The notes under the pieces were generated by a model that saw nothing but the letters and a program-made list of their open reading frames with translations, ran no database searches and was not told the DNA's origin. From an uncultured Spirochaetaceae bacterium (GTDB lineage Bacteria > Spirochaetota > Spirochaetia > Sphaerochaetales > Sphaerochaetaceae): DNA of 64,000 nt. Positions 4,946 through 21,289 of this stretch are shown here, piece after piece. Position numbers and translations under genes: made by a program. The stretch spans positions 1 through 64,000 of the forward strand of contig CALXMP010000011.1 of NCBI GenBank assembly GCA_944389505.1. The letters are read 5' to 3'. Positions within the stretch are counted from its first letter, which is position 1; the number at the start of each line of letters is the position of its first letter.

Positions 4946-4952
4946 TCCTGCT

Positions 4953-4982
4953 CTCTGGGGATTCTGAAGAGAATCCCCAGAG
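4953..4982 (+). terminator. Hairpin terminator after the first lipoprotein/barrel pair
   Basis: CTCTGGGGATTC and GAATCCCCAGAG form a perfect 12-bp stem with a 6-base loop, 8 bases after the barrel stop codon. The downstream T-tract is weak (CAATTATTA). Confidence 0.7.
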
Positions 4983-5388
4983 CAATTATTAGGAGAAATC
5001 ATCACATGATAATCCATAGGAATATATCCAGTTCTATGGGACTAAAGCTTAAACATCAGCCAAGTCATTTTGAGAATTCTTGCCGTTAGCTCTGCATAGA
5101 CATTGCGTTCAATCTTGAATTCTGAGAAATCATATGCTTTTGTGCTTATTTTCCTGATACTCCCTTATTGATGTCTGCAGGTATATTGGCAGATTATCGA
5201 AGCTGATCATATATTTTTCCTATACATGACATATAGACCAATTTCATTATAGATAAGAAATTTTGTTATAATTTGTTCTTTTTTTGGTTTTCGAAGAGTC
5301 AGCAAACAAACGATACCGTAAAAAAATTACGATAAAACTTGACGCATATAAGAAAGTTTCCATAAAGTATAAAAAGGACATACACTTT
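4983..5388. other. AT-rich intergenic region without a recognisable gene
   Basis: About 400 bases between the terminator and the next start codon. I see no tRNA, repeat or credible ORF. It must hold the promoter of the RloA/RloB-like pair. The reading frame of the downstream gene stays open upstream to a TTG at 5284, but that extension is Lys-rich and unlike the family, so it is treated as non-coding. Confidence 0.5.
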
Positions 5389-6516
5389 ATGGAAGCTAGA
5401 CTTGCAAAATTCACGGTTAAGGGATTCAGGAATTTCAAGGATTCCATCACGATTGATTTTACAGATGTAAGAGATTATAGATTCACTCCGGAGTGTATCA
5501 CTGATGGAATTATCACAAAGATGGGTATATATGGTCCCAATGGTTCTGGTAAAAGCAATTTAGGAATTGCGCTCTTCAATATTGTTCCATACCTTACAGA
5601 TTTCAATTGTGATCCAATTGCTTTCAATCCTGGCAATTTCCTCAATGTAGATCAGAAGACTGATGAGGCTATCTTCAGATATGATTTCTTGATTGGAGAG
5701 TCCGAATACATTTTTGAATATCATAAAGCGGCATATAATAATGCTTTAAGAGAGCTTTTAATTGTAAATGGAAGAACTCTGTATGATTATGATTTCCGCC
5801 GAAAACATTTTAATATTCTGAATCGAGATGGGTTCATAGGGGATAATCTTAATTTTGAATATCTTAGTGGGAATCTTTCGATTCTTAGATATATAGCCAA
5901 CAATGCAGCTCTGAAGGATGACTCGCCTGTAAAGGTCATCATGGATTTTGTCTCCCACATGCTTTGGTTCAGATCTATACGTGATAATTCTTTCATTGGA
6001 CTTGAGCCTAGCTCTACGATGCTTGATGACTGGATTATCAGCAATGGATTAATAGGAGATTTCAATAGATTCCTCAGAGAAGTGTGCAATATCGATATAA
6101 AGCTTGATGCTGTTACTACTCCTGATAATAAGAAGATCCTAGTTGAGAAACATGACAATGGTTTGCTTATATTCCAGCAGGTTTGTTCCAGTGGTACAAG
6201 CGCTGCAGAGCTTTTCTATTTCTGGATGAAGCGTTTCAACAGAATCTCCTTGCTCTTTATGGATGAGTTTGATGCATACTATCATTTTGAATTAGCAGAG
6301 AAAATTATATCCATCATCAAAACTTATTCTGATATGCAGATGATATTCACCACCCATAATACATCGCTTATGGGTAACGATATCCTCAGGCCTGATTGTT
6401 ATTTCTTCCTTAATAAAGGCTTGCTGAAATCCTATGTCGATAGAGCAGGGGGCAGGGAAATCAGAGAAGGGCATAATCTTGAAAAAATCTATAGAAATGG
6501 TGGGTTGAATGGCTGA
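5389..6516 (+). CDS. AAA_15/RloA-like ATP-binding protein
   Basis: A 375-residue ABC-type ATPase of the AAA_15/AAA_21 group. The N-terminus (ARLAKFTVKGFRNFKD) is the usual SMC/RecF-like start, with Walker A GPNGSGKSN near residue 48, Walker B LLFMDEFDA near 288, and the switch His in FTTHNTS near 320. I chose the ATG at 5389 because AAAAGGAC lies about 10 bases upstream and the family N-terminus begins there; an upstream TTG at 5284 would add 35 basic residues. It overlaps the next gene by 8 bases. RloA proteins and AriA of PARIS are related ATPases that pair with a Toprim/RloB-like effector, so an anti-phage role is likely but inferred. Confidence 0.7.
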   Translation: MEARLAKFTVKGFRNFKDSITIDFTDVRDYRFTPECITDGIITKMGIYGPNGSGKSNLGIALFNIVPYLTDFNCDPIAFNPGNFLNVDQKTDEAIFRYDFLIGESEYIFEYHKAAYNNALRELLIVNGRTLYDYDFRRKHFNILNRDGFIGDNLNFEYLSGNLSILRYIANNAALKDDSPVKVIMDFVSHMLWFRSIRDNSFIGLEPSSTMLDDWIISNGLIGDFNRFLREVCNIDIKLDAVTTPDNKKILVEKHDNGLLIFQQVCSSGTSAAELFYFWMKRFNRISLLFMDEFDAYYHFELAEKIISIIKTYSDMQMIFTTHNTSLMGNDILRPDCYFFLNKGLLKSYVDRAGGREIREGHNLEKIYRNGGLNG

Positions 6517-7255
6517 TAGAAAGCTTCTCTTTATATGTGAAGGACTACAGGATGAACCAGATTTCCTGAAGCATATGATGCTCAAGGTCTTTCCTGATAT
6601 CAGCTACAAGATTTATTCATATCGAACGACAATACATACCCTTGCTTCACGGCTTAAGAATGAGTATCCGGATTTCGATGATGGTTATCATGATATCCGA
6701 CTTATTCTGAGAGATAACGAGAGAGATCAGGATTTAAGGGACATCCTTTCCGGATCTTTCTCGGATATAATTCTTGCATTTGATTTTGAGCCTCATCATG
6801 ATCATCCTGATTTCGATACTGTCAGAAGGATGCTGGCTTATTTCTGTGATTCAACGGATATGGGAAAACTTTACATAAACTATCCTATGATGCAGTCATA
6901 TAAGCATCTTAAATGTCTTCCTGATCCAGATTATATTAACAGGAAAGCTTTTCCAAGAGGGTATAAGGAACTTGTAGGCATTGAAAGCTGTATGACTGAT
7001 TTACAGAAGTATAACTACGAGATATTCATTCAGATTGCGATACATAATCTTATTAAGATCTATAATATCCTTCGCAATTTGAGGCTAATTCCAGATTCGG
7101 AGTCATATTATAAAATGGATTGGGTTGAATTATTTGACAGGGAGCTAGGAATCTATTGGAACACAGATATGGTTGATGTAATCAATACCCTGTGTTTCTT
7201 TCCTGTTGATTACAATCCGGCTGATTTCTTTGAAAGAATCAGAAGACATCAATAA
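6509..7255 (+). CDS. RloB/Toprim-like effector, partner of the ATPase
   Basis: A 248-residue protein overlapping the ATPase gene by 8 bases. The N-terminus LLFICEGLQDEPDFL places a Glu in the position of the Toprim/RloB catalytic glutamate, and a second acidic cluster follows near residue 87 (AFDFEPHHDH), as expected for a Toprim-like metal site. A third block, YPMMQSYKHLK, near 130 fits RloB-like proteins, where a similar conserved stretch follows. ATPase plus RloB/DUF4435-like Toprim protein is the layout of RloAB and PARIS defence modules. I cannot tell these subfamilies apart by eye. The region is AT-richer than the housekeeping part of the window, which suits an acquired module. Confidence 0.6.
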   Translation: MADRKLLFICEGLQDEPDFLKHMMLKVFPDISYKIYSYRTTIHTLASRLKNEYPDFDDGYHDIRLILRDNERDQDLRDILSGSFSDIILAFDFEPHHDHPDFDTVRRMLAYFCDSTDMGKLYINYPMMQSYKHLKCLPDPDYINRKAFPRGYKELVGIESCMTDLQKYNYEIFIQIAIHNLIKIYNILRNLRLIPDSESYYKMDWVELFDRELGIYWNTDMVDVINTLCFFPVDYNPADFFERIRRHQ

Positions 7256-7372
7256 AGTAGAGATGAAATATATATGCAGTTATATTTAAGCTTTATCGTA
7301 TGAGAAGTATATTCGAATAAAGATATCACATGATTCTTTTGCGCTATAGTTTATTGAATTGATATGAAATAA

Positions 7373-7391
7373 CCTCTAGCAATGCTAGAGG
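7373..7391 (-). terminator. Short hairpin after the large lipoprotein gene
   Basis: CCTCTAGC and GCTAGAGG form a perfect 8-bp stem with loop AAT, about 30 bases beyond the stop of the minus-strand gene. The minus-strand sequence after it is T-rich but interrupted (TTATTTC). Confidence 0.5.
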
Positions 7392-7418
7392 CAATATCAA
7401 TACCTAAAAATCTAGGAT

Positions 7419-9956
7419 TTAAAGAATTTTTGTGATTGAGGAATCGTTATTTATTATGTATTCCTTTCCAGCTTCGATTTCACCTTCATAACCATTTCTG
7501 CTAGAGAATATCACTGTGTAGCTACCACCATCTGAACTAGGATTAACACCAGCATATTTGATTTTTGCTGTACCTTGATTATAAGGTAATGAGATTTCTA
7601 ATGGTCCATAAGCAGCGGAATCAACTTCATCAAGATCATTGATTCCTAAATAAGTCCAATAATTACAGATCAAAGCTAGATTATTGTTAATTATCAAGGT
7701 ACCTATATCAGAATCATTTGTATATTGCTTAAATTCAATGTATCCATATGTAACATCGGCTCCACTTGATCCATGGCAATTTTTCACATAAACATTTTTG
7801 ATTGTATCAAATGTTTGCGCAGATCCCCATGCTTCTGTTCCGAACCAATCATACCCAAAGCTTATATTTGCTTCAGATATAGGATAATTGATTATATCAT
7901 TAACAGCATTTACAAGAGAGTTTGCATCAGTAATTGATACTCTATAGACATCAAGTTCCAGAGTTTCCTCTATATCATCAAAATATTTAGGGGAAACAGA
8001 TATCTTTACTTTTCCGGTTCCACCTGTAAGGGTAACAATACCTTTTTCTTCATCAACCTTTGCGATGCTTTCATCGCTTGAATGATATACAACATCCTTG
8101 ACGGTTGAATCTGATGGAAGAGTTGATGCCTTTAACTTGATTACACGTGCTTCTCCAGATTTTAGGGTAGTGGAGACACGGGTTTCTGTAGAGACAATAT
8201 TAACACCAGTAGTTGGGACTTTTACATAAACGAACTCAGTAGGTTCACTTTTGAATGTTCCTGAAGAGGTCTTTATAGAAAGCTCAAGTGTATTTTTGCC
8301 TTCTTTAAGTCCTAGTGATCCAGCTATTCCCTCTGTCATATTGATAAATGTTCCACCATTATCAGCTGTTGCTGTTTTTACCTCTGTTCCGTTTACCTGC
8401 CAGATATATTCAGTAACAGCAGAAGATTCAGAGATGGAGACACATAAACCATCTGAATTAGGTAGAATAGCCATCTTGTTGGAGTCAGATGGGGTGAAAT
8501 CAAATCCATCTTTGATTTCAGGTTCCTTGACTGTGACTCTATTATCAGAGATGACAAGATCAGAAGTCGGCAAACTCAATTCTCCCTCAATTTCACCTCT
8601 CATTCCCATGACTTTATACGCATATGTATTGTAGGAATAAAGCGCTGAATCAGAGAATCTGTTCTTATCACTTTTCTCTACTTTTTCAAGGAATTCAAAA
8701 TCCCTTCCGTTAACACTTCTGTAGATAGCGTAACTATCAGAACCTTCAACATCTCCCCATGAAATAGTAAAAGCATTGCCATCAACAGCTGCAGAAATAG
8801 ATTTAGGAGCTTCAAGAATTATTTTTGCAATAACTTTCTCTGGGTATGTATAGTATGAAGAAACAAGACCTGTTTTGTGATGCGCCTGGAAGCGTACAGT
8901 ATATTCATCTCCCATAGCCATATCTGTGATTGTAAATGATGAGGTATCACTGCCATTGACCTGAACAGTTGCAGTCTTTTCAGCTACAATAGGGGATGAA
9001 TACTTTATTGTTACATAATCAAAGATTACATCTCCATCCTGAACCTGATTCTTCCAGGACAAAGTAACAGAAGATCCTTCGTCTGGTCCACTTGTATATG
9101 TTACATCATAAACGTTATCTGCACTGTTGATTTCTGTGTCAGTTATCTTATAGATATCACTGTTATCAGTTCCATTCTGGATTGAAATGAGATTGGAGAA
9201 AATCTGTGTTTTCGGAGTTGCTAAAGAAGGATTAAGCATTATACCGCTTTTTGTTGTAAGAGCATACTTCAGTCTCAGATCTGTTGCTACTGGCAGATTA
9301 TCGACTACAAACTGAAACATTGTTGTGCTGGTTCCTGTTGCGGCGCTTTTCCCAGCTTCAATCCATTTATTATTTCCTTCGTCATAATAATAAAGGATAA
9401 AAACAAGTCCACCATCTGCCATAGCAGATTTTATTGTTTCATTTGTTTCGGCAATTCCGCTCCAGTCAAATGTCATTGATGAAGAACCTGTATATTTCTT
9501 AGTACTTATCTCGGCAAGGTTCACGGCAACAGAATTTGAACTGTCCTCATCAACAGTCAGATATTTTTCCCCTGTTCCATTCAGAAGTTTTGTTTTGCCA
9601 TCCTTTCCAAATGCATCGATGATTACAGCGTATTCACCATATTCAACATTTCTGATTATGAATTGTGTTGCAGAACCGGGGAAACTTTCATTCCTTTTAC
9701 TTGTTTGATCGGCGCTGATAACCCATTTGCCATTTTTATTTGTAATCCGGCCAAGACAGACCGAGTATGTAGAAATATCAGAAGAAGCAGATGAATCCGA
9801 GTCAGTCTGATCATTTATTTCTCTAGAAGTTACAGGAGAAGCGTTTTTTATCATTACTGTCGCATCTGCTCTTGGAACACCTGGAGTAGAGTTTGCACAG
9901 GAAAGGATCATAAGAACAATCATAAGGATTGAAGACATTGATCCGATTTTTCTCAT
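7419..9956 (-). CDS. Large lipoprotein with fibronectin III and Big_2-like domains, copy 1
   Basis: An 845-residue predicted lipoprotein with lipobox ILSC and Cys20. Residues about 45-160 resemble a carbohydrate-binding-like beta domain with the phrase NVEYGEYAVIIDAFGKDGKT. FN3-like domains span about 285-475 (DYVTIKYSSP, then SISAAVDGNAFTISWGDVEG and YAIYRSVNGRDFEF). A Big_2-like Ig domain occupies about 585-670 (VSTTLKSGEARVIKLKASTLPSD...VVYHSSDESIAKVDEEKGIVTLTGGTGKVKISV). It is paralogous in architecture to the lipoprotein at 13804-16764. It is transcribed divergently from the lipoprotein at 10218 and shares the regulatory motif with it. A surface adhesin or glycan-binding role is inferred from the domains. 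Confidence 0.7.
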   Translation of the reverse strand: MRKIGSMSSILMIVLMILSCANSTPGVPRADATVMIKNASPVTSREINDQTDSDSSASSDISTYSVCLGRITNKNGKWVISADQTSKRNESFPGSATQFIIRNVEYGEYAVIIDAFGKDGKTKLLNGTGEKYLTVDEDSSNSVAVNLAEISTKKYTGSSSMTFDWSGIAETNETIKSAMADGGLVFILYYYDEGNNKWIEAGKSAATGTSTTMFQFVVDNLPVATDLRLKYALTTKSGIMLNPSLATPKTQIFSNLISIQNGTDNSDIYKITDTEINSADNVYDVTYTSGPDEGSSVTLSWKNQVQDGDVIFDYVTIKYSSPIVAEKTATVQVNGSDTSSFTITDMAMGDEYTVRFQAHHKTGLVSSYYTYPEKVIAKIILEAPKSISAAVDGNAFTISWGDVEGSDSYAIYRSVNGRDFEFLEKVEKSDKNRFSDSALYSYNTYAYKVMGMRGEIEGELSLPTSDLVISDNRVTVKEPEIKDGFDFTPSDSNKMAILPNSDGLCVSISESSAVTEYIWQVNGTEVKTATADNGGTFINMTEGIAGSLGLKEGKNTLELSIKTSSGTFKSEPTEFVYVKVPTTGVNIVSTETRVSTTLKSGEARVIKLKASTLPSDSTVKDVVYHSSDESIAKVDEEKGIVTLTGGTGKVKISVSPKYFDDIEETLELDVYRVSITDANSLVNAVNDIINYPISEANISFGYDWFGTEAWGSAQTFDTIKNVYVKNCHGSSGADVTYGYIEFKQYTNDSDIGTLIINNNLALICNYWTYLGINDLDEVDSAAYGPLEISLPYNQGTAKIKYAGVNPSSDGGSYTVIFSSRNGYEGEIEAGKEYIINNDSSITKIL

Positions 9957-9990
9957 TGATTTCTCCTCTATAGAACGAATCTCTTTACGT

Positions 9991-10002
9991 AGTTAACGAA
10001 CA
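9991..10002 (-). promoter_or_regulatory. TGTTCGTTAACT operator-like motif
   Basis: On the minus strand TGTTCGTTAACT stands 35 bases before the ATG of the 845-residue lipoprotein. It matches the motif found upstream of the three other lipoprotein genes in this half of the window. Confidence 0.5.
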
Positions 10003-10122
10003 GAAGGATATAGTTTTGTCGTTTAAGTATCAATATGTTTTTAGAATTTAATTCTATATTGATATATTCAAACATTGCGATAATCTGACAAAAGCTATTT
10101 CTTTGTCAACATCAGCTGATTT

Positions 10123-10158
10123 AACGAACATGATAAAGTATTTTTGTTAGATAACTTG
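10123..10158 (+). promoter_or_regulatory. Operator-like element AACGAACA / TGTTAGATAACTTG
   Basis: AACGAACA (10123-10130) and TGTTAGATAACTTG (10145-10158) repeat exactly the two elements found upstream of the paralogous gene at 1757, although the gap between them is 14 instead of 5 bases. The TTG at its end runs into TTGTCA, a plausible -35, with TACTAT 19 bases further. Confidence 0.55.
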
Positions 10159-10217
10159 TCATTGATTCTTGTTTATGATTTACTATGTCGGGCAACTCAT
10201 AGGAGCAGCACGTATAA

Positions 10218-12023
10218 ATGAATAAAAGATTAAATTACATTTTATATATTATATTGATTATTTGTCTTTTTGGTTGTTCACCAATGCCATATGAGGACCT
10301 TTCTGATGATAGCAATTCAATATCTATAGATAGGAATGATTATGAGATTGAAGCAACTGAAAATGGCGATTATATCGAGGTAAAATTCCAGAGTATATCA
10401 AATGCTCGGTCATATGGTTATGGACTTTCCAGTGATAACGTTACGAAGTTATCTCTTAGTGAGCTTACTTTCAGTGATGGCTATTATACTGTAAAGATAA
10501 GCAAGGATATTTTTTCCTCTAATACGGAAAGTACACCTGTTGCTCAATCCAGAGCTGCAGGGGGTAAGTTCTCCATTATAATGTTTGCTTCAACTAGTAG
10601 TACTCCTTCAGATGACTGGATTCTTCTTAAATCTGTTGATGTTGCTTTAAGCCTTACAATTGCTCCAAATCTCAACGTTTCAAATAGACATGAAGATAGT
10701 GTTGTTTTCGATGCAAGATCTGAGGCTGTGTCTGGAGGAATGACATATAGCATTTCTTATGGTGAAAATAAAACCGTTGAATTCGATTCCTCAGAGCTCC
10801 CATATACACTCGAGGGGGTAGGGAGTGAAGCTTTTGAAATAACTGTATCCCATAAATATACTGGAACTTCTTCTTACTATGATCAGACACAGACTCTATC
10901 TGTGCCTGAGTTTGACGAGAGGCAGGCTGATATAGATATGACTATCAATGCCGATGGTTCTATTTCTTTATCAGGAATTCCTGAGAATGCGCTGAAGATG
11001 GCGAATTATGCTGTTGTTTCTGCTGGTAGTGATGGTAAATTAACAAGTATCCATTCTGCTAAGAATAATCTTTCTGGAAGCGCAACGCTTTCCAGTGATG
11101 TTTTTGGAGAAGGATTCTATGCTGGAACTATAAGGATTGCTTTTTATAATAACAGTCCTGATGATTCTTCTTCTGTCATCAGTCCTTCAATCGATTATGC
11201 TGCAGATGTTAATAAGCTGAAGAAGAATGAGAAGATAGGTAAGCAGAGCTACAGCGTTTCTATACCAGTTTCCGATCTTCTTGGTCTTAATGATGGCAAT
11301 ATTAAAGTATCAGGTATCAGTGATGTCTCGATTGAGAAAAGCTTCGAGAATGACATGCTGAATATCAGCATTGGGGCAGGGCAGCTTATCAGCAAGACTA
11401 AGTATTCATTGACAATTTCTTTTGAGATTCCTTCCTATGGTACTGTTACTAGAACACTCGATTTCACCACAGGTTCTTTCGCAGGAACTCTTTATGAATG
11501 GCGATATGATAATTCAAATCAATTCGCTGTCATTGTAGAAGATGCGCCCGCTGGGTCTCCTTTTAACTATTATGTTTATACATCACCGAGTGATATAAAG
11601 TACAATGGCCAGAAACTACGCCTATCTCCGTTGTATGAGCATGATGAGGATTTGCCTGATGGTGGAGTAAGTTATTCGGATTCTCCGGAAGCGTATAAAT
11701 GGAATAATTCCAAATGGAATAATTCAGGTATCAATCCATCATCATTAAATGATATCAGAACAACCATAATAAATAAGGATTATACATCTGCAGAGGTTGA
11801 TTCTTCTGCTTCAGGCTTTGATGTTACAACCACTACATCTGTCCAGTTCAAGGAAACAGAGGATGCTCTTTATCTTATTTTCTATAATTATATAACTGGT
11901 GGTGATTCACTAGGTGTAACATTCGGAAGGAAGGAGCTTGCATCAAATCCTGATCCCGATCCAGCAAAGTTTGAGACCAGTGATTATCATTTTGCATTGA
12001 AATACATGGGGTCTGGAAATTGA
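10218..12023 (+). CDS. Surface lipoprotein, paralogue of the 1757 gene product
   Basis: A 601-residue predicted lipoprotein with lipobox LFGC and Cys20. Most of the chain is Ser-rich beta-structure. The C-terminal part (FAGTLYEWRYDNSNQFAVIV, then DAPAGSPFNYYVY and later SPEAYKWNNSKWNN) aligns with the C-terminus of the 628-residue lipoprotein upstream, which has FAGTYRWDN, DAPAESNFQYYA and AYEWNYKKW. Its last codon overlaps the TTG start of the following barrel gene, so the two are translationally coupled. The substrate is unknown. Confidence 0.75.
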   Translation: MNKRLNYILYIILIICLFGCSPMPYEDLSDDSNSISIDRNDYEIEATENGDYIEVKFQSISNARSYGYGLSSDNVTKLSLSELTFSDGYYTVKISKDIFSSNTESTPVAQSRAAGGKFSIIMFASTSSTPSDDWILLKSVDVALSLTIAPNLNVSNRHEDSVVFDARSEAVSGGMTYSISYGENKTVEFDSSELPYTLEGVGSEAFEITVSHKYTGTSSYYDQTQTLSVPEFDERQADIDMTINADGSISLSGIPENALKMANYAVVSAGSDGKLTSIHSAKNNLSGSATLSSDVFGEGFYAGTIRIAFYNNSPDDSSSVISPSIDYAADVNKLKKNEKIGKQSYSVSIPVSDLLGLNDGNIKVSGISDVSIEKSFENDMLNISIGAGQLISKTKYSLTISFEIPSYGTVTRTLDFTTGSFAGTLYEWRYDNSNQFAVIVEDAPAGSPFNYYVYTSPSDIKYNGQKLRLSPLYEHDEDLPDGGVSYSDSPEAYKWNNSKWNNSGINPSSLNDIRTTIINKDYTSAEVDSSASGFDVTTTTSVQFKETEDALYLIFYNYITGGDSLGVTFGRKELASNPDPDPAKFETSDYHFALKYMGSGN

Positions 12024-13297
12024 GAAAGGCATTCCTGTATCTGATTATATTTTCTTTTGCTGTATCAGGTCTTTACTCAATTGATCTCATTCCTGTGAAT
12101 GGGTTTGATGATAAAAGCATATACAGTAGTCCCGCAATATTAGCTTCACTGGAAGATAAGAAGGTTCCTTTTGGCTTTGAACTGAAGGGATATGCTGATA
12201 TGGATATGATAAATTTCATATCAAATCCAGCTCCTGTCCTTGCTGATGCAGCAAACTATCTGAAAGATTATCTTCTGGAGAAAGATGATCAGTATTTATA
12301 TGATAATTATGATGCAATAAAGGAAATCTTTCAGTTTGATGCCCAATTTCCGGTCCTTTATGAAGACATAACAGAGAATTCGTACTTCATCAGGGATTAT
12401 CTTGCGAATAGATTTGAGATGATAGGTGCCGGTAATCGAGCAAGAGCTGTATCAAATGCATTGACCTCTTCTCTTGGTATATTCCCTGAAGATACCTCTT
12501 CGCTTGTCGATGGTGAACTTGATTTCTCCCTGCGATTGTATGGGGGAGAAATCAGTAATGGTTTTGCCTGGAATATTGGAATGGGAATTGTATATGATGG
12601 ATCTCCCTCGATTCTTAATTCAGTTTCCTATAAGAATCATGAATATGGTAGTGATCTATATTTTACATTAGGAGGAGACCTCGGGTATGGCACCTATATT
12701 GGTGATAATTTTGCAATAGGTGTTTCATTCTCTCCAGATTTTATTTTTAGATCAACAATTCCTGGTTCAGCTTTGATGTCTTCGAGGCTTAGTGGCAAAT
12801 TTCTGGAATTACTTGGAGGAAATACATTTGATTTTGGTCTGTCTCTGAATCTTAATCTTGGTTTCATGATTGATGCGGGAGAAGCTAAGATTCTTATTGA
12901 TTTCAGGAATCTTCCCTCAATGCAGATGTATTGGTACTTTGATGCTAATGATATTCTCGATGGGTTCAAATTTCATGAGGATGAGAATATCTACTTTGTT
13001 CCCCCTGATGCATCTATTGGTGTAGTTTGGAATCATGATTCCTGGTGCATCAAAGGTGAAATAAGCAATATAGCTGATCAGCTTATCTGGAAAACTATGA
13101 TTCCATCCTATAATTTTGATATCCTTTCTGTTCCTAAATTCTCTATTGGCTATTCGATTATAGAGGATATGATTATCAGCCTTGGATATGAATATAGAAA
13201 GGTTGTTCTCGGTTTTGGATACAAAGGGCTTAATGTTGAGTTTTCAACAAGAGTGGATAGGATAGGGTTCGGCGTTGCTCTTGGCTACGAATTCTGA
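12020..13297 (+). CDS. Outer-membrane beta-barrel protein, copy 2
   Basis: A 425-residue barrel-type protein that starts with TTG overlapping the lipoprotein stop (TTGA). Signal peptide MRKAFLYLIIFSFAVSGLYS, then repeated amphipathic strands. It shares the PFGF, GG-EISNGFAWN.G, DENIYFVPPD and W..KGEISN..DQLIW landmarks with the barrel at 3659-4945, with the same order and nearly the same length. The pair of lipoprotein plus barrel is therefore duplicated as a unit within 9 kb. Its role may be uptake, secretion or surface display of the lipoprotein; the sequence does not decide this. Confidence 0.75.
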   Translation: MRKAFLYLIIFSFAVSGLYSIDLIPVNGFDDKSIYSSPAILASLEDKKVPFGFELKGYADMDMINFISNPAPVLADAANYLKDYLLEKDDQYLYDNYDAIKEIFQFDAQFPVLYEDITENSYFIRDYLANRFEMIGAGNRARAVSNALTSSLGIFPEDTSSLVDGELDFSLRLYGGEISNGFAWNIGMGIVYDGSPSILNSVSYKNHEYGSDLYFTLGGDLGYGTYIGDNFAIGVSFSPDFIFRSTIPGSALMSSRLSGKFLELLGGNTFDFGLSLNLNLGFMIDAGEAKILIDFRNLPSMQMYWYFDANDILDGFKFHEDENIYFVPPDASIGVVWNHDSWCIKGEISNIADQLIWKTMIPSYNFDILSVPKFSIGYSIIEDMIISLGYEYRKVVLGFGYKGLNVEFSTRVDRIGFGVALGYEF

Positions 13298-13305
13298 AAA
13301 TAGTA

Positions 13306-13335
13306 TTGAAATTCGATTAAGTATTCAGCTATAAT
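13306..13335 (+). promoter_or_regulatory. Promoter of tRNA-Thr
   Basis: TTGAAA (13306-13311), an 18-base spacer and TATAAT (13330-13335), placed 10 bases before the mature tRNA start. Confidence 0.65.
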
Positions 13336-13345
13336 CCCCGAGTAT

Positions 13346-13417
13346 GCCAAAGTAGCTCAGTGGTAGAGCAGCTCACTCGTAATGAGCAGGTCGCGGGTTC
13401 GACTCCCATCTTTGGCT
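13346..13417 (+). tRNA. tRNA-Thr (anticodon CGT)
   Basis: Cloverleaf with acceptor stem GCCAAAG/CTTTGGC, D-arm GCTCAGTGGTAGAGC, anticodon stem GCTCA/TGAGC with loop CTCGTAA (anticodon CGT), and T-loop TTCGACT. CCA is not encoded. The T-stem reads GCGGG against CCCAT, which leaves a C-A mismatch and a G-T pair at the outer end. Confidence 0.93.
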
Positions 13418-13452
13418 TTAAGTAACATCTGAGATTAAGTAACATCAGTATC

Positions 13453-13487
13453 AAAAACCTTGTTTCAAGCATTGAAATGAGGTTTTT
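13453..13487 (+). terminator. Terminator after tRNA-Thr
   Basis: AAAAACCT and AGGTTTTT with an inner TTTCAA/TTGAAA form a bipartite hairpin ending in TTTTTCTC. A 12-base direct repeat TTAAGTAACATC (13418-13429 and 13435-13446) sits between the tRNA and this hairpin. Confidence 0.65.
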
Positions 13488-13639
13488 CTCGTTAATATGC
13501 AACTTAATATTCTGTCTTCAGCCGCATCGTACAATCTTCCAAAGGAGGATTGTAATGACAGAGAAGAAGGCAAGTAGACCATGGTGATTGACTTTAATAC
13601 TCATTTTATTGATATAAGTCAGCTTTTTCCTTTAAGTCA

Positions 13640-13657
13640 TATAGACAATTGTCTATA
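13640..13657. promoter_or_regulatory. Perfect 18-bp palindrome overlapping a -35 box
   Basis: TATAGACAATTGTCTATA is fully self-complementary. It covers the candidate -35 TAGACA (13642-13647) of a promoter whose -10 TATAAT lies at 13664-13669 (16-base spacer), an arrangement expected for a repressor operator. Confidence 0.5.
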
Positions 13658-13669
13658 AATTAATATAAT
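13642..13669 (+). promoter_or_regulatory. Candidate promoter of the 986-residue lipoprotein gene
   Basis: TAGACA, 16 bases, TATAAT. This gives a 5' leader of about 125 bases that would contain the TGTTCGATAACT motif. Confidence 0.5.
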
Positions 13670-13702
13670 GGTCCAAGGTTATTCTACACGAAAGGCCTAA
13701 AT

Positions 13703-13714
13703 TGTTCGATAACT
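13703..13714 (+). promoter_or_regulatory. TGTTCGATAACT operator-like motif
   Basis: This is the fourth copy of the motif seen upstream of the lipoproteins at 1757, 9956 (minus) and 10218. It starts 101 bases before the ATG. Confidence 0.5.
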
Positions 13715-13803
13715 CTACATTCTTGACACTTTGGTAAAAAATGAACTTTTAGGATTTATGTTGATGGCCAATGATATTGAATTTGATTTGAGGTGTAACA
13801 ATA

Positions 13804-16764
13804 ATGGAATCTAGACGTCTTTCAGGTTTTGCTATTATTTCTTTTCTTTTTTTGATTCTTATATCATCATGCAGCCCTAGTGGACCTAATTTGGAAGATA
13901 CTGTTGATCTGACCATTACAACGCGATCCTCAAATGTTTCCACTATGTCAATTCTTCCGGAGGAAGATGCTATTACTCCTGAGAATCTGAGTATTGAGCT
14001 TGAGAACAATGAGACAAAAGAAGTATCTCAGGGAGGAAGTTTCCCATATAACAAAGAGGGTGGGGAATATACTCTCAGCAATGTTAAAATTGGTTCTTAT
14101 AAGATAATTGTCAAAGGAAAAATTACACGTAATGGTGAGCAGGTTACTATCCTGACAGGTTCAACAGATTACAATGTTACTGCATCTGGAAAGAATTCAT
14201 GCACAGTTGAAATGAAGTTTGGTTCTGATGGCAAAGGTCTGTTTGAGGCGAATATCATCTGGAAAGATCTTACTGCAACCAGTGGAAGTCCTTTAGCTGA
14301 TGCCATTTCCAAGAACAAGAGTCTAGGATTCCTTGCTTTCTACGAAGATACTGATGAGCCAATTTCAGGAGAGAATGGAACTAAAGATGAGCTCCCCATC
14401 CAGTGGGTTGATGATATAGCATCAGGCGAGTATCTTTATCATGACTATGAGGTCCCTGCTACTGGAAAGACATCAAAGGATATTTATTTCCTGATTTATA
14501 CAAAGGATAGTTCCGGGAATATTTCGGTAGTTGCAAAAACCTTCTATACATCGCTTACAATTTATCCGAATATCTTATCTATTCCTGATGCTAATGAAGC
14601 CTATAATTTTGTCCTAACAAACAATAATGTTCAGGGATATCTTCAGAATGTCAGTGATGTGAAGGTAACCATTGATGACAAGGATCCTTCAGGGACACTT
14701 GTTGTATCCTGGACAAATCCTGCTTTCTCAAGTTCGGTTTATCCTATGACAGTTTCCGTAAGGATAGAGCAGGAAGGTGAAGGTAGCTATACTCATACAG
14801 AATCTGTTACATTTTCTTCTGCTGCAGATTCAAAAGAAAGAACAGTAAAATTCACAGGATTAAGTGCTGCCAATACATATTCTATCTATACTAAGATTGA
14901 TGGCGCTGTAGGATATTCTCTTGAAGATCTGCAGAAAACCGGTGTAAGAACACAGGGAGTAACAAAAATCGAATTTGGTTCAGCCCTTGAATCTACTTAT
15001 GTTGTTGGTGATTCTGTTGATATCAAAGCAAAGATTACACCAGCTGCCGCGGATCAGAATAAATACACGATAAAAGAGCAATGCAATTCTGATGGAATAA
15101 CAATCGAAGGACATAAGGTAACATTCACTAAGTATGGTGATTACACAATTGTTCTTGTTGCTGATGAGGATAATACAAAGACTGCATCTCAGACAGTTAC
15201 AGTTAAACTTGCTGCACCTGCAGATGTGAAAGCTGAAAACTCTGATGGTGTTAAGATATCATGGACAGCTGTCTCGGGGGCTGCAGGGTACACGGTGTAT
15301 AGATCTGGTTCGGATGATCCTATTGTAACAGGTCTAACGGCAACCTCTTATGTTGATAAGAATGTTGAGGCTGGTGGATCATATTCATATACTGTAGTAG
15401 CAACTGCTGGTAATACAAAATACAATAGTGATAAGTCAGAGGTATCTGATACTGTAACTACAGCCAGTGCTTTCCTTGAAATAAAGATTCCAAGCATTCC
15501 TTCGCTATCTCTTACATCTTATCTTGAACCAGTAAGAGGTCATTACCTTAAGCTTGATGATGAGGCTATGTCATCAATCGGACTTGAGCTCTCAAATCCG
15601 ATTGAAGGGGCCACAAGGTATATCTGGAAGCTTAATGACACTGAGCTTGTTAATACTGACAGCTTTGAAACAGCAAAGACTCTTAGTATAACTACAGGAA
15701 CAAATGGCCTGATAACTGATAGTATCGGTAATAATCCTAATACTCTGACATTGAAGGTTTATACTGCAAATGCAGAATACTCAGGCAGTGTGCAGTTCTA
15801 TGTTATCAGAGGAGAGATTCAGAAGCTTTCCTCAATTACTATTGGAAATGGTGATGATCGTGTTGTGTATGGTACAGCAGAAGACCTTATCGCTAACTTT
15901 ACTGGTAATGGGACAATTCCTGCTGTAACGTGGTCAGCTTCACCAGAAGGAATTGTGGAAATAACCGATGATGGTAAAATCAAGGCTCTGAGAATGGGAG
16001 ATGCAACAATCTCTGCAAAGGTTGAAGGAGCTGATTATTCTGTTGAACCAGTCACGATTAAGACATACATTCCTGCAAAGGAAATCAAGATAAACACTTT
16101 ACCTCATACTGAAATGTTCCTTACAGCAGATAAAGGTGTAGAAATTGTTGATAACTCATATCATGAAATGGATTTGAGTGATTATCTTGTTGTTTGTGCA
16201 GAGAACGGGGAGACTGTTTCTGCAGATAAGCAGGGCGTATATTCATCGGATATTATATGGACTTCCGATAATACAAATGTAATATCAATAAATGGCGATA
16301 CTGGTTTAATTACTTCTCAAAAGGGAAGTGATACTAACCCTGGTGATACATCTGTTACTATCAAAGCAACATCATCAGATAATTCAGAAGTTTTTGGTAG
16401 TGTCACAATGCAAGCTTTGAAAATTGATATATATATTGATAGTAAAGATAATATAGTCACTGGTGGAAGTTATATTAATCGAATATACGATACTCAGTCT
16501 TTGAATCTTTTATTTACTGATGACTATTTTAATAATGAAAATTTTGGTGGTAGATTTAAAAACTATTGGTCATTTAGCAATACTGATGTTAATAAGACTG
16601 ACATCGGTTCTAGTGTAAGTCCTTTTTATATAAAAAGTAATGGATTCACAGGTGAAATATACAGAGGTGGATTTAGTACTAAAACAGCAACTGTCTATTC
16701 ATGTATTTTTGATTTGCAAAACAATCCAATTGTTACATTGAGTTATACGGCAAAAGCGACGTGA
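13804..16764 (+). CDS. Very large lipoprotein with FN3 and Big_2-like domains, copy 2
   Basis: A 986-residue predicted lipoprotein with lipobox ISSC and Cys23. The N-terminal 130 residues resemble those of the 845-residue lipoprotein (YTLSNVKIGSYKIIVKGKIT against NVEYGEYAVIIDAFGK). FN3-like domains follow at about 275-390 and 470-560 (ADVKAENSDGVKISWTAVSG and GYTVYRSGSDDP). Two Big_2-like segments follow at about 665-750 (TWSASPEGIVEITDDGKIKA) and 780-870 (IIWTSDNTNVISINGDTGLI). The C-terminal 110 residues are more AT-rich and look different. A surface-exposed binding protein is likely from the domains; the ligand is unknown. Confidence 0.7.
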   Translation: MESRRLSGFAIISFLFLILISSCSPSGPNLEDTVDLTITTRSSNVSTMSILPEEDAITPENLSIELENNETKEVSQGGSFPYNKEGGEYTLSNVKIGSYKIIVKGKITRNGEQVTILTGSTDYNVTASGKNSCTVEMKFGSDGKGLFEANIIWKDLTATSGSPLADAISKNKSLGFLAFYEDTDEPISGENGTKDELPIQWVDDIASGEYLYHDYEVPATGKTSKDIYFLIYTKDSSGNISVVAKTFYTSLTIYPNILSIPDANEAYNFVLTNNNVQGYLQNVSDVKVTIDDKDPSGTLVVSWTNPAFSSSVYPMTVSVRIEQEGEGSYTHTESVTFSSAADSKERTVKFTGLSAANTYSIYTKIDGAVGYSLEDLQKTGVRTQGVTKIEFGSALESTYVVGDSVDIKAKITPAAADQNKYTIKEQCNSDGITIEGHKVTFTKYGDYTIVLVADEDNTKTASQTVTVKLAAPADVKAENSDGVKISWTAVSGAAGYTVYRSGSDDPIVTGLTATSYVDKNVEAGGSYSYTVVATAGNTKYNSDKSEVSDTVTTASAFLEIKIPSIPSLSLTSYLEPVRGHYLKLDDEAMSSIGLELSNPIEGATRYIWKLNDTELVNTDSFETAKTLSITTGTNGLITDSIGNNPNTLTLKVYTANAEYSGSVQFYVIRGEIQKLSSITIGNGDDRVVYGTAEDLIANFTGNGTIPAVTWSASPEGIVEITDDGKIKALRMGDATISAKVEGADYSVEPVTIKTYIPAKEIKINTLPHTEMFLTADKGVEIVDNSYHEMDLSDYLVVCAENGETVSADKQGVYSSDIIWTSDNTNVISINGDTGLITSQKGSDTNPGDTSVTIKATSSDNSEVFGSVTMQALKIDIYIDSKDNIVTGGSYINRIYDTQSLNLLFTDDYFNNENFGGRFKNYWSFSNTDVNKTDIGSSVSPFYIKSNGFTGEIYRGGFSTKTATVYSCIFDLQNNPIVTLSYTAKAT

Positions 16765-16797
16765 AAATTATGTTATTTTCATCACAGTACTTGATTG

Positions 16798-17289
16798 TCA
16801 GTAGCTATTTTCGAATATGAGCATCGTCTCATCAACGAGCAGAGCGAATGCCTGCATATCATCGGAGAAGGAGAGGAGGATTCTCTTTCTCCCTTGATAT
16901 GCCACAAGAAAGCCATCTTCGTATCTGAATGAGATGAGCGTAGGAAAGGAAGGGGAGGATAGTTTCAACAGAAGCTCCCCATTACCTTCCTGTATGGTCT
17001 GTGCACTGCCATCTGCATCGATGAAGAATGTATTATTGAGGATTTCCCTGTTAGCTTCGTCTGCAAGCCAGTATCTTTCATCCGCTATGCTTATCTCCGC
17101 TATTATCTCGCTATATGTCTTTTCCTGGATATCCATTGATAGAAAGAGCTTTATGCAGGTAAAAGCTATTGTTGTTACTATCGCTGCAGATATGGCAAGA
17201 GCAATAATGAGCTTCCTCCAATCTCCCTTAGGTCCATCCCCTTGCTCCATGTACTTCTTTGTTGGCTTGATATCCTCTATTGCCATCAT
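16798..17289 (-). CDS. Hypothetical single-pass membrane protein
   Basis: 163 residues. After a charged cytoplasmic stretch of 26 residues comes one membrane helix (about 28-52, LIIALAISAAIVTTIAFTCI) and then an extracytoplasmic domain of about 110 residues with a YRYEDGFLVAYQGRKRILL-like beta pattern. No family is recognised. It is transcribed divergently from the small gene and tsaD, and convergently with the large lipoprotein gene, 33 bases away. Confidence 0.6.
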   Translation of the reverse strand: MMAIEDIKPTKKYMEQGDGPKGDWRKLIIALAISAAIVTTIAFTCIKLFLSMDIQEKTYSEIIAEISIADERYWLADEANREILNNTFFIDADGSAQTIQEGNGELLLKLSSPSFPTLISFRYEDGFLVAYQGRKRILLSFSDDMQAFALLVDETMLIFENSY

Positions 17290-17494
17290 ATTGATGTTAT
17301 GTGCTTCCTTGTTCCAGGGGAGATGCTTTCGGCTTAATATCTGCTTTTCTGCTTATTGGAACATGTAGTTTTCCAATCATTGGTGCAATATTGCGGTTTT
17401 TATGCTATCCTGCACACAGATGCAGGGATTATCAATTGACGGCAGGGCGTCAGTGTATTATCTTAGCATCAGCGTACGGAGGCAGGGGAGCAAT

Positions 17495-17722
17495 ATGGAA
17501 GAGATCAGATTTGATTCATTCGGAGCAGATCTCAGCAGCCTGGGGCTGTCTTTCCTTCAGGAGATTACAGAGAAATCGAAGCAGAACGGAGTCCAGATCG
17601 GCGTGCCATGGTCGAAGGATGTATATAGATATATATTCGAGCTTTCACCGGCTGGCGATGTTGAGACCATTCTCGAGAATTCTGTCTGCGGACTTACAAT
17701 CATCGATCCGGATAACCTATGA
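17495..17722 (+). CDS. Small protein of unknown function coupled to tsaD
   Basis: 75 residues from the ATG at 17495, chosen because GGAGGCAGGGGAG precedes it. The frame remains open further upstream, but that part has no family-like character. It reads MEEIRFDSFGADLSSLG and ends in IIDPDNL. Its stop overlaps the tsaD start by 4 bases (ATGA), so it is likely a coupled first gene of the tsaD operon. No domain is recognised. Confidence 0.6.
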   Translation: MEEIRFDSFGADLSSLGLSFLQEITEKSKQNGVQIGVPWSKDVYRYIFELSPAGDVETILENSVCGLTIIDPDNL

Positions 17723-18732
17723 TCATACTTGGCATTGAAACTAGCTGCGATGAATGCAGCGCTGCGGTTGTGCGCGATGGCCATGAGATTCTCTCAAATG
17801 TCATTGCGACACAGATAGAGCTGCATAAGCCCTATCAGGGAGTTGTGCCTGAGCTTGCATCCAGACTCCATACGGAGTGGATACAGCAGGTCGTTGAGGC
17901 TTCGCTTCGCCAGGCTGGTATTACGAACAAGGAACTTGATGCTGTTGCCGTCACTTCGCGTCCAGGGCTTCTTGGATCGCTTCTTGTCGGTGTCAGCTTC
18001 GCAAAGTGCTATGCTCAGGCTCTTGGTATTCCATTCATCGGTATCGATCACATCAGGGCGCATCTCTATGCATCGCAGATCGAGAATCCGCTGGAGTATC
18101 CTTATCTTGGAGTGCTTGTATCAGGTGGTCACACAGTCATCTGCCGCGTTGATTCCTATGATAAGGTCGATGTATTGGGCACAACGATTGATGATGCGAT
18201 AGGTGAGGCTTTCGATAAGGTTGCTAAGTTCTATGACCTAGGATTCCCAGGAGGAGTTGTCATAGACAGGCTCTCAAAGAATGGCGATCCTAATGCATTC
18301 CTTTTCCCTGGTCCTTCACTTGACAGGACTGAGCATCCCTATGATATGTCCTACTCAGGTCTCAAGACAGCTGTTATAAACCAGAAGGATAAGTTCAGGA
18401 ATGGCGATGCTCCTGATACCCCTGAGAATATCGCAGCATCATTCCAGAGACAGGCAGTAGGGATTCTTATGAGACGTGTAAAGCTTGCTTTGAATGATAC
18501 AGGACTGAAGAGGGTATCGGCAGGTGGAGGAGTCGCTGCCAATTCGCTTCTTCGTGCGGAGCTTAAGGATCTTGAGAAGAGCGGATACACAGTTACATTC
18601 CCATCTCTGAAGCTCTGTACGGATAATGGTGCGATGGTTGCTGGACTCGCTTACTGCTATCTTCGCGACGGGTATCGCGATGATGTGCATCTGAGTGCTT
18701 CAGCTCGTGTCACTGCTTTCAAAAAATTCTGA
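17719..18732 (+). CDS. tsaD: tRNA threonylcarbamoyladenosine transferase TsaD
   Basis: A 337-residue Kae1/TsaD ATPase that transfers threonylcarbamoyl to A37 of tRNAs reading ANN codons, together with TsaB and TsaE. The N-terminus ILGIETSCDECSAAVV is diagnostic. The metal-binding H-x-x-x-H occurs in IDHIRAHLYAS (about residues 110-120), followed by the GVLVSGGHT nucleotide loop and the C-terminal CTDNGAMVAGLAY motif. The length fits the family. The neighbouring tRNA genes are probably coincidental. Confidence 0.97.
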   Translation: MIILGIETSCDECSAAVVRDGHEILSNVIATQIELHKPYQGVVPELASRLHTEWIQQVVEASLRQAGITNKELDAVAVTSRPGLLGSLLVGVSFAKCYAQALGIPFIGIDHIRAHLYASQIENPLEYPYLGVLVSGGHTVICRVDSYDKVDVLGTTIDDAIGEAFDKVAKFYDLGFPGGVVIDRLSKNGDPNAFLFPGPSLDRTEHPYDMSYSGLKTAVINQKDKFRNGDAPDTPENIAASFQRQAVGILMRRVKLALNDTGLKRVSAGGGVAANSLLRAELKDLEKSGYTVTFPSLKLCTDNGAMVAGLAYCYLRDGYRDDVHLSASARVTAFKKF

Positions 18733-18804
18733 GAATAATTTGATGTATTTAAAGAAGTTATATATTTCTTCAAATATATTCTACTGTAATTTTCACGAAA
18801 GCTA

Positions 18805-18833
18805 TTGACACATTTGCGACATTCCTTTAATCT
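18805..18833 (+). promoter_or_regulatory. Promoter of the tRNA-Gln/tRNA-Glu unit
   Basis: TTGACA (18805-18810), 17-base spacer, TAATCT (18828-18833), 18 bases before tRNA-Gln. Confidence 0.7.
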
Positions 18834-18851
18834 TGCTGAGGATTCGGAAAT

Positions 18852-18922
18852 TGGGATGTGGTGTAACGGTAACACTGCAGATTCTGGTTCTGCCTTTGGG
18901 GGTTCGAGTCCCTCCATCCCAG
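18852..18922 (+). tRNA. tRNA-Gln (anticodon CTG)
   Basis: Acceptor TGGGATG/CATCCCA, anticodon stem GCAGA/TCTGC with loop TTCTGGT (anticodon CTG), T-arm GGGGGTTCGAGTCCCTC. CCA is not encoded. Confidence 0.93.
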
Positions 18923-18932
18923 GAGTAAAAAT

Positions 18933-19004
18933 GGTTCCTTCGTCTAATGGTTAGGACAGGAGATTCTCAGTCTCTAAATAGGGGTTCGATTCCCCTAGGA
19001 ACTA
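18933..19004 (+). tRNA. tRNA-Glu (anticodon CTC)
   Basis: Acceptor GGTTCCT/AGGAACT, anticodon stem GGAGA/TCTCT with loop TTCTCAG (anticodon CTC), T-arm GGGGTTCGATTCCCC. It lies 10 bases after tRNA-Gln and shares its promoter and terminator. Confidence 0.93.
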
Positions 19005-19007
19005 TCT

Positions 19008-19032
19008 AAGCGGCGATGAAGCCGCTTTTTTT
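19008..19032 (+). terminator. Rho-independent terminator of the tRNA pair
   Basis: AAGCGGC, loop GATGAA, GCCGCTT, then a run of T residues. Confidence 0.85.
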
Positions 19033-19046
19033 AGTTAATTGACTTA

Positions 19047-19639
19047 TCATTGCCCGCTTATTGCCAAAGCAGTTTTCTGGAAGAATGCAACGCCATAGCA
19101 GATGATACTGTCATACTCACGAAGGCCGCTACGGTAGTCCATCGTCTGAATCTGCGCAAGTGCCTTCTGTGCATCATATTCCATATCATCAGCTTTCTTA
19201 GATCGTTTGAATTCGAATATAGCAGCCTTGCCTGTATCAGCATCTGCGATGATGAGATCAGGACGTCCGTTGCCGGATTCCCTGTTGGACATCACTCTGT
19301 ATCCGGAAGAGGCAACCAGCCCTGCTGTGAATGCATGATAATAGCTCTCGCTATAATCATAGTAGCTTATAGTCTTCCTGAGATATGCAGTGAGGATCTT
19401 CGATAATTCTTCGTCCTTTCCGTTCCATATTGCTGAGAACAGGGGAGTGCGGTCCGCGCTCTCTGCCATGTCTGCAAACCAGTTGTTCGACCTCCTCAAT
19501 GAAAAGGTGGCGTATCTCCTCGTTTGGCAGCCTCAGCTTTGTCTCCTCATAAGGGATATAGCGTTCTGCAAGGGTAAGGTAACCAGTAGATAGCATGAGG
19601 CTCCATATATTCGTCTCATTGCGGTGAACGCTCTCCATC
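19047..19639 (-). pseudogene. AAA-ATPase-like / PD-(D/E)XK protein, C-terminal fragment (frameshifted)
   Basis: The minus strand encodes the C-terminal half of a protein of the AAA-ATPase_like (PF09820)/PDDEXK_9 (DUF1703) family. The upstream frame reads IWSLMLSTGYLTL and then LPNEEIRHLFIEEVE; near 19490 the homology moves to another frame that continues WFADMAESADRTPLFSAI, then YYHAFTAGLVASSGYRV and the nuclease core GRPDLIIADADTGKAAIFEFK. A single-base indel separates them. The N-terminal part lies beyond the TnpB element, at 20996-21289, and about 230 residues between them are gone. In this family the C-terminal domain carries the PD-(D/E)XK-like fold; the intact protein's role is unknown. 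Confidence 0.8.
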
Positions 19640-20927: not shown

Positions 20928-20995
20928 GATTCATCATACCATGTCTGCCGATTCATCTCCATCTTATCTGCGAATTGAAGGTGGAGTCCTCTCGG

Positions 20996-21289
20996 CTATT
21001 TGTGATAGATAACGGGATATTTGTTCATCCAGTTATTGATAGCTTCTTTGTCATCATAGACATCCAGTCTTCTGAACAGCTCTTCAGAGTCCTCTCTTAT
21101 ATCGAAGAATGAGGCAAGCATGGATTGTACAGTTGTTTTGCCGAAACGCCGTGGACGGGTAAAGATAATCCCTCTGGCATTATCCCTGATGATTTCGCTT
21201 ATTATCTTTGTCTTATCCACATAATAGTTCCCTGACTTTCTTATATCCTGGAACCCGGAGCTTTCAATCGGCAGGGAGATTCTTTTCAT
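20996..21289 (-). pseudogene. AAA-ATPase-like protein, N-terminal fragment
   Basis: 97 residues beginning MKRISLPIESSGFQDIRKSG and containing YYVDKT and the P-loop-like FTRPRRFGKT, both hallmarks of the PF09820 AAA-ATPase_like family, then a stop after KYPVIYHK where intact members continue with a further 400 residues. The rest of the gene lies beyond the TnpB element. It is probably non-functional, although the short reading frame itself is intact. Confidence 0.8.

Follow-up and report, generated by a model that had tools for sequence, protein, structure and literature searches.

Large lipoproteins with variable C-terminal ends beside a lipoprotein-barrel gene pair in an uncultured Sphaerochaetaceae bacterium

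INTRODUCTION

The Lig proteins carry a tandem array of about 12 to 13 Big_2 domains and bind host matrix proteins through C-terminal domains. LigA and LigB of Leptospira are spirochete lipoproteins with a common N-terminal part and differing C-terminal ends, and they are the nearest precedent for differing ends that bind (PMC7821625). Here we describe two large lipoproteins, P0001 (845 residues) and P0002 (986 residues), encoded in a 64,000-nucleotide stretch from an uncultured Spirochaetaceae bacterium (contig CALXMP010000011.1, positions 1 to 64,000 of the forward strand; the whole stretch is called the window below). They lie on opposite strands and flank a gene pair at 10218-12023 and 12020-13297, encoding a smaller lipoprotein, LIP, and a predicted outer membrane barrel, BAR. 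We read P0001 and P0002 as variable-tip surface lipoproteins, with ends exchanged by recombination, beside a barrel-lipoprotein platform, and give this reading as a whole a probability of about 0.5.

For the gene pair, the precedent is BamG-BamH of the Bacteroidota, a FadL barrel with a surface lipoprotein (PMC12578637, PMC12611786). BamH has a highly conserved N-terminus, which lies wedged inside the BamG barrel, and the genes of BamG2 and BamH2 are putatively one operon (PMC12578637). FadL/TodX channels, which include five FadL-like proteins of Treponema pallidum, have an N-terminal region ahead of the first strands (PMC8407342). VlsE of Borrelia is a surface lipoprotein varied by recombination (PMC9159922). 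Our literature searches found no text combining Sphaerochaetaceae with a surface lipoprotein and, judged by title, no dedicated study of Sphaerochaeta lipoproteins and the outer membrane. To our knowledge, the placement of lipoproteins on the spirochete surface is poorly understood.

RESULTS

Two related lipoproteins with different C-terminal ends

The genes of the two proteins and their parts are as follows.

7419-9956, minus strand: P0001, 845-amino-acid (aa) lipoprotein of the large FN3/Ig family, P0001 clade, C1 tail; open reading frame (ORF) open throughout
13804-16764, plus strand: P0002, 986-aa lipoprotein of the same family, P0002 clade, C2 tail; ORF open throughout
9102-9899, minus strand: N-terminal domain common to both, P0001 residues 20-285 (alignment A4, cross-clade profiles)
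13870-14661, plus strand: N-terminal domain common to both, P0002 residues 23-286 (alignment A4, cross-clade profiles)
8868-9080, minus strand: FN3, P0001 residues 293-363 (Pfam PF00041, E = 1.2e-8)
15214-15441, plus strand: FN3, P0002 residues 471-546 (Pfam PF00041)
7995-8204, minus strand: Big_2, P0001 residues 585-654 (Pfam PF02368, exactly at the cut-off of 22.8)
7422-7952, minus strand: tail type C1, P0001 residues 669-845, the last 177 (alignment A5)
16405-16755, plus strand: tail type C2, about 117 residues of P0002 (alignment A6)

Compared directly by BLASTP, P0001 and P0002 are 22% identical over 295 aa (E = 3e-5), and the N-terminal parts alone give an E value of 0.056. A profile made from eight P0001-type N-terminal domains detects the domain of P0002 (E = 1.2e-16), and one made from 13 P0002-type domains detects P0001 (E = 9.4e-14); these cross-clade profiles exclude the other clade, the domain edges themselves having been set by a joint profile. 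All tested members of the opposite clade (13 and 8) were found in this way, with E values of 2e-13 to 4e-43, and none of 840 shuffled sequences scored. In a tree of 30 N-terminal domain rows, the P0001 clade (12 rows) and the P0002 clade (18 rows) separate with support of 99/99. By these comparisons the two proteins are real, old paralogues. Each is single-copy in the genome of this bacterium. The P0001 clade carries nine C1 tails, one C2 tail, and two tails cut at contig ends, one of them in genome G003, whose C1 tail probably lies on another contig. In the P0002 clade, 13 rows have a C2 tail and five have no assigned type; G063, among those five, carries a C2 tail according to a search with the C2 profile.

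The tails themselves are not alike. The C1 and C2 profiles each miss the other protein (domain E < 1e-3), and hhalign gives the pair a probability of 0.6%. A single superfamily uniting C1, C2, and the LIP tail found no support (hhalign probabilities of 0.1 to 0.6%). Against solved structures, C1 had no match at E <= 1 and C2 a single one, at E = 0.21; Pfam and structure-profile comparisons recognized no known binding domain in either tail.

Between N-terminal domain and tail lie Ig-like modules. FN3 scores 35.5 bits in P0001 and 26.4 bits in P0002 (Pfam cut-off, 25), and hmmscan found no Big_2 in P0002. Across the family alignment, Big_2 was matched in 17 of 18 members and FN3 in 15 of 18 (E <= 0.01). 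Among solved structures, the family profile hits chains of FN3, intimin, LigB, and Big_2. The lipid anchor of Lig proteins has its counterpart here in a lipidation-type cysteine after a hydrophobic signal, at residue 20 in P0001 and residue 23 in P0002. The differences from Lig are several: there is no long Big_2 array but one or two Big_2-type modules with FN3 and a private N-terminal domain, C1 and C2 are not recognized as Big domains, a barrel-lipoprotein pair stands alongside, and no binding is known for P0001 or P0002. An initial annotation of this DNA had described two ORFs of 845 and 986 residues on opposite strands around 10218-13297, both lipoproteins with a common N-terminal domain and differing C-termini, and all of this holds. 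It had also described FN3 and Big_2 repeats; FN3 is indeed present in both proteins, but repeats were overstated for Big_2.

Among 60 genomes (the bacterium's own, 35 of the same genus, and 24 of the same class), P0001 matched 10, nine of them in the genus, and P0002 matched 15, 12 of them in the genus. Matches outside the genus are short stretches within repeat modules; full-length relatives were found in this spirochete genus only. Within the genus, the N-terminal domain profile matches 38 of 48 genomes, though in many the match is weak and covers the domain incompletely. When P0002 was searched against named genomes, no relative turned up. In G062, the orthologue of P0002 (L207:10218-13186) is split into ORFs of 187 and 673 aa, by either a frameshift or an assembly error.

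Replacement of 3' ends

The ends of these genes, and of LIP genes, can differ abruptly between close relatives. The window holds two LIP-BAR cassettes, the second of which lies between P0001 and P0002.

10218-12023, plus strand: LIP, 601-aa lipoprotein of the second cassette, directly upstream of BAR
11478-12020, plus strand: C-terminal domain of LIP, residues 421-601, corresponding to the part that has been replaced in other LIPs (alignment A11)
12020-13297, plus strand: BAR, 425-aa predicted outer membrane barrel, FadL-like (AlphaFold2, Foldseek, VIA)
1757-3643, plus strand: first-cassette LIP, 628 aa (homology), its end replaced relative to G019
3659-4945, plus strand: first-cassette BAR, 428 aa (homology), 97% identical to that of G019

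Three cases stand out. A P0002-clade large lipoprotein of G030 and G065 is 83.5% identical at the DNA level until all similarity ends ~215 codons before the stop; the match resumes at 80%, 4 bp past the stop codon. For the ~600-aa LIP of G025 and G026, DNA identity runs from 92% through a stretch without a blastn match to 94%, and for the first-cassette LIP of the window and G019 it runs from 89% through such a stretch to 98%, with the C-terminal ~200 residues replaced. The flanks of all three replaced 3' ends keep 80 to 98% DNA identity. In both LIP cases, the unmatched stretch extends into the start of the BAR gene. The LIP tails of the window and G019 are 31% identical to each other and have different nearest relatives, at 57% and 42%.

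We compared close pairs with a body identity of at least 70% and both ORFs complete and at least 350 aa long, counting tail drops of at least 30 points. Such a drop occurred in three of nine pairs of large lipoproteins or LIPs (1/3 and 2/6) versus none of 98 others (13 of BAR, two of F5, one of F3, and 82 from 17 other families). Among 13 chosen pairs of large lipoproteins, the tail was less identical than the body in 10. A protein of G018 is chimeric, P0001-like to about residue 550-600 and P0002-like thereafter. From these patterns we infer that recombination causes the 3'-end replacements. P0002 and its G026 orthologue are 26% identical in the tail and 49% in the body, a faster divergence of the tail that fits variation and does not by itself show a swap.

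The initial annotation had taken the AT-rich last 110 residues of P0002 as consistent with a swapped end. Their GC content is indeed 29.1% (37.5% for the gene), and the last 110 residues of P0001 stand at 31.5% (37.0% for the gene). In 27 of 29 rows, or 26 of 28 distinct genes (one counted twice), AT content is higher in the tail than in the body, and P0001 is among these. Because AT-richness is family-wide, it is uninformative on recent swaps, and we rejected it as evidence; end replacement itself is real in the family and in the neighboring ~600-aa lipoproteins.

The likeness to VlsE has two limits: the C1 and C2 profiles found no silent donor cassettes in 48 genomes, and it is whole 3' ends that differ here, between species. 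Most candidates for donor tails fell away on inspection. An apparent C2 orphan in G030 (C133, L260) is a contig-end fragment 99% identical to the tail of G001, and C1 fragments in G003 and G016 both run off contig ends. L260 bears G001-like genes inside the bin of G030, probably as contamination. The only internal lone tail is a 118-aa ORF of G032, a C1-like tail fragment (L050:6425-6781) not at a contig end.

A conserved front with an exchangeable C-terminus, together with this lone ORF of G032, would also suit polymorphic toxins or contact-competition proteins with toxic variable tips. We consider this very improbable: no toxin family was recognized in the tails, the return of homology 4 bp past the stop codon in G030/G065 leaves no room for a co-exchanged immunity gene, and the remaining apparent orphan tails are contig-end fragments.

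The LIP-BAR pair

In 37 of 39 loci the gene immediately upstream of BAR, in the same orientation, is LIP, and in 15 of these 37 the two genes overlap by 4 bp; the exceptions are one contig end and one LIP fragment. BAR is present in 35 of 48 genomes of the genus, with two or more matches in some. In the class as a whole, it was found in 18 of 297 genomes and three of 112 genera, namely this genus, one sister genus, and one other by a weak hit. The sister-genus BAR loci that we fetched contained no N-terminal domain. A barrel gene of G223 (L245:9878-11299) and one of G062 (L207:8255-9679), from two genera, share 97.2% DNA identity over 1.4 kb only, with flanks lacking similarity, by either barrel-only transfer or a bin artefact.

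Beside the pair, P0001-type genes take two arrangements: in the window, G026, G062, and G025 they diverge from it, and in G009, G029, G023, and G069 they immediately precede it in the same orientation. A strong C1 tail (E <= 4.3e-72) occurs in eight of 48 genomes, in all eight beside LIP-BAR, and all eight are without F5 (present in 28/48) and F4 (present in 26/48), two members of an alternative lipoprotein block. The C2 tail is matched in 16 of 48 genomes. The window, G026, and G062 have their P0002-type gene near LIP-BAR, whereas in G001, G012, and G014 LIP-BAR opens a run of genes that a P0002-type gene closes; often these genes end an F3-F5-F7-F4 block. The F3 protein of that block directly follows BAR in six loci.

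The barrel fold of BAR is a prediction. Its AlphaFold2 model, made with four sequences, has a pLDDT of 74.8, with residues 12-32 below 50. Foldseek placed TodX/FadL first (TodX, E = 5.8e-9), although the TM-scores of the top two were only 0.35 to 0.42. VIA-align gave Z scores of 18.5 for CymD, 18.4 for CymA, 17.8 for FadL, 17.7 for TodX, and 17.0 for OmpG, where rows within 1 Z unit count as tied; other barrels of 14-strand size thus tie with the FadL type. It also gave 16.7 for a type IX secretion system (T9SS) chain, presumably PorV, and 15.8 to 16.9 for chains of the Bacteroidota BAM complex, which we take to be BamG. None of seven BARs scanned had a Pfam match, and none matched FadL/Toluene_X at E <= 1. 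A regular expression found [NSH]-P-[AGS] near the position of the FadL hatch NPA in 33 of 36 BARs, one of which has NPA itself; three of the 39 BARs, with overlapping loci, were left out of this count. As predicted, BAR would resemble the FadL/TodX channels, the T. pallidum proteins included (PMC8407342), in its similar size and in the N-terminal region ahead of the first strands. It differs in the absent Pfam match, the cognate lipoprotein directly upstream, and the near-equal scores of other barrels.

What might such a pair do? One possibility, which we hold to be improbable yet the strongest of the alternatives, is nutrient uptake by a SusCDEF analogue: a hydrophobic or glycan-derived ligand would pass through BAR as its channel, with LIP as the lid and the large lipoproteins as surface capture proteins, and tail variation would alter the captured ligand. 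The top solved barrels are channels, the barrel-lipoprotein pair is constant, and the hatch-like motif fits. In addition, DUF4992 matches P0002 below its cut-off (22.2 bits; cut-off, 29), and GH85_C matches 2/18 family members, likewise below threshold. However, two scans of 10 proteins each found no glycoside hydrolase, sugar-binding, or SusD family at cut-off, and the T9SS and BAM barrels of FadL type, which score 15.8 to 16.9, are not nutrient channels. Nor, unlike in SusCD systems, was a TonB-dependent SusC barrel or SusD lipoprotein present among the proteins scanned here.

A role in envelope biogenesis has also to be weighed, with LIP-BAR as an accessory BamGH-like module that exports or assembles surface lipoproteins and the large lipoproteins as its clients. 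BamG, a FadL homologue, carries the surface lipoprotein BamH (PMC12578637), and C-x-P stands at the acyl-cysteine in 32 of 34 LIP copies versus six of 30 large lipoproteins. Yet BAR is not universal in the genus and can be multiple, and LIP-BAR evolves fast, with its LIP end replaced, unlike a housekeeping machine; we think a role of this kind quite unlikely. The two systems are alike in a FadL-like barrel, predicted in the case of BAR, encoded with a lipoprotein and in a conserved lipoprotein N-terminus (PMC12578637). They differ in that BamG-BamH is a widely conserved, apparently essential BAM subunit, whereas LIP-BAR is accessory, variable, and limited to two related genera plus the one weak hit. 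We do not claim LIP-BAR as a member of BamG-BamH or the large lipoproteins as members of Lig.

The locus and the closest genome

Two genes mark the site.

13346-13417, plus strand: tRNA-Thr (CGT), landmark of the hotspot (ARAGORN)
17719-18732, plus strand: tsaD, conserved right-hand neighbor of the hotspot (NCBIfam TIGR03723)

The same tRNA-Thr occurs near the cluster or tsaD, in either orientation, in nine further genomes (40 loci scanned): G026, G009, G029, G018, G025, G030, G012, G062, and G061. We read tRNA-Thr/tsaD as a putative insertion hotspot. A ~220-bp segment with the tRNA (13345-13568) is inverted relative to its neighbors in G026 and G062 (81% identity, opposite strand). Genes at 5284-16764 have a GC content of 36.4 to 37.5%, the first cassette 43.5 to 43.8%, and most other genes of the window about 46 to 53%.

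Strain comparison, named beforehand as a check, revealed a locus that varies. The closest genome, G019 (contig C109, CALXLE010000109.1), is 96.9% identical to the window over 16798-19818 and 98% over 3677-6305. Its match stops leftwards 33 bp short of the P0002 stop codon, and the contig continues for 252 bp. Of 5284-16797, G019 matches only the first 1,022 bp (100%, in the ATPase gene, where its contig ends) and, within the tRNA, a stretch of 55 bp, the latter being its sole match within 7419-16764. The tail profiles found neither C1 nor C2 in G019; its single BAR belongs to the first cassette, and its N-terminal domain matches are four weak ones (best, 1.8e-11). The block is missing from this assembly, and by sequence matching it is likely absent from the genome.

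An origin from a phage or plasmid was tried and rejected: the only matches to phage records, three of them, fell on the tRNA-Thr, viral contigs had no C1 relative, and tblastn of P0001 against plasmids gave no match. Promoter and terminator scans returned sites no more numerous than in shuffles, and a repeat scan, made without a chance estimate, returned short diverged pairs only.

Other genes of the window

The same low-GC block includes, at 5284-7255, an AAA_21 ATPase and a partner that match PDC-M12A/B, a candidate defense pair, in PADLOC (E = 1e-108 and 3e-36). A 192-aa partner outside recognized families accompanies a further AAA_21/AAA_15 ATPase piece at the left edge (93-1528). At 19047-21289, two pieces match both ends of a 562-aa G030 protein, whose G026 relative has 566 aa; the ORFs between them, by the look of their translations, presumably encode a TnpB-type transposase, and an insertion probably broke this gene.

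DISCUSSION

We imagine P0001 and P0002 as N-terminally lipidated stalk proteins, most likely on the outer face of the outer membrane, in which a domain of ~265 residues would sit next to the anchor, followed by FN3 and Big-type Ig modules and then by a fast-changing terminal domain, C1 or C2. LIP, with its C-x-P anchor, and the FadL-like BAR are probably made from one operon and may form one complex, a platform for P0001-type proteins that would anchor, export, or dock the large lipoprotein. Recombination would leave stalk and barrel in place and replace the 3' ends of the genes for the large lipoproteins and LIP, in most cases by a diverged form of the same end domain and once by the other type. 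The entire block would also be gained and lost at the tRNA-Thr/tsaD hotspot, which would add further variation. The tips may bind ligands. Adhesion to glycan or matrix, as initially suggested, is plausible by analogy with Leptospira Lig.

Several observations weigh against this reading. The predicted model of P0001 is poor (pLDDT 48, too poor for structure search), and the BAR model appears to resemble barrels of this size, with FadL-type ahead, and not FadL alone, because CymA and OmpG lie within about 1 to 2 Z units and the TM-scores are low. P0002-type proteins lie away from LIP-BAR in other genomes. C1-like tails also end 13 long ORFs (1,089 to 1,263 aa; E = 8e-16 to 2e-4), among them that of G018, a genome without any barrel match, and in G024 and G060 the C1 tails of the P0001-clade proteins are weaker and lie away from any LIP-BAR; these cases, the long F3-type proteins included, weaken C1 as a strict barrel marker. 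The absence from G019 rests on an 89%-complete metagenome-assembled genome in which the gap is bordered left and right by contig ends. The close pairs are few and not independent, and four close pairs of the P0001 clade (the G009/G029/G069 pairs and G026/G062) have no extra tail divergence. The three replaced tails are still 25 to 49% identical as protein, which makes them, as far as sequence can tell, diverged versions of one domain, and very fast local divergence may have taken the place of replacement.

This last point leads to another view, in which the proteins are ordinary surface antigens or phage receptors that evolve fast, bind no specific ligand, and vary at their ends through relaxed constraint and occasional recombination. 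Besides the likeness of the replaced tails, the comparison of the window with G026 speaks for it: identity is 54% and 47% for the large lipoproteins, 57% for LIP, and 61% for BAR, versus 96% for TsaD, 95% for the large protein at 21382-24558, and 74 to 89% for three further neighbors. However, replacement affects 3' ends alone, its edges are sharp, the reading frames stay intact, and it was not seen in the 98 other close pairs; we regard this explanation as unlikely.

Returning to variable-tip lipoproteins beside a platform, one can envision a bolder form, which we offer tentatively and think rather doubtful. A LIP-BAR platform of the lineage's own, built like BamG-BamH, might carry the stalk lipoproteins, and the C1/C2 tips and the LIP end might be recombined at domain edges between species, re-aiming the platform at different ligands.

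The same stalk and barrel with a different tip amount to a natural experiment, which, if the tips bind ligands, would map specificity. Should LIP-BAR indeed handle surface lipoproteins, it would bear on how spirochetes display lipoproteins at their surface.

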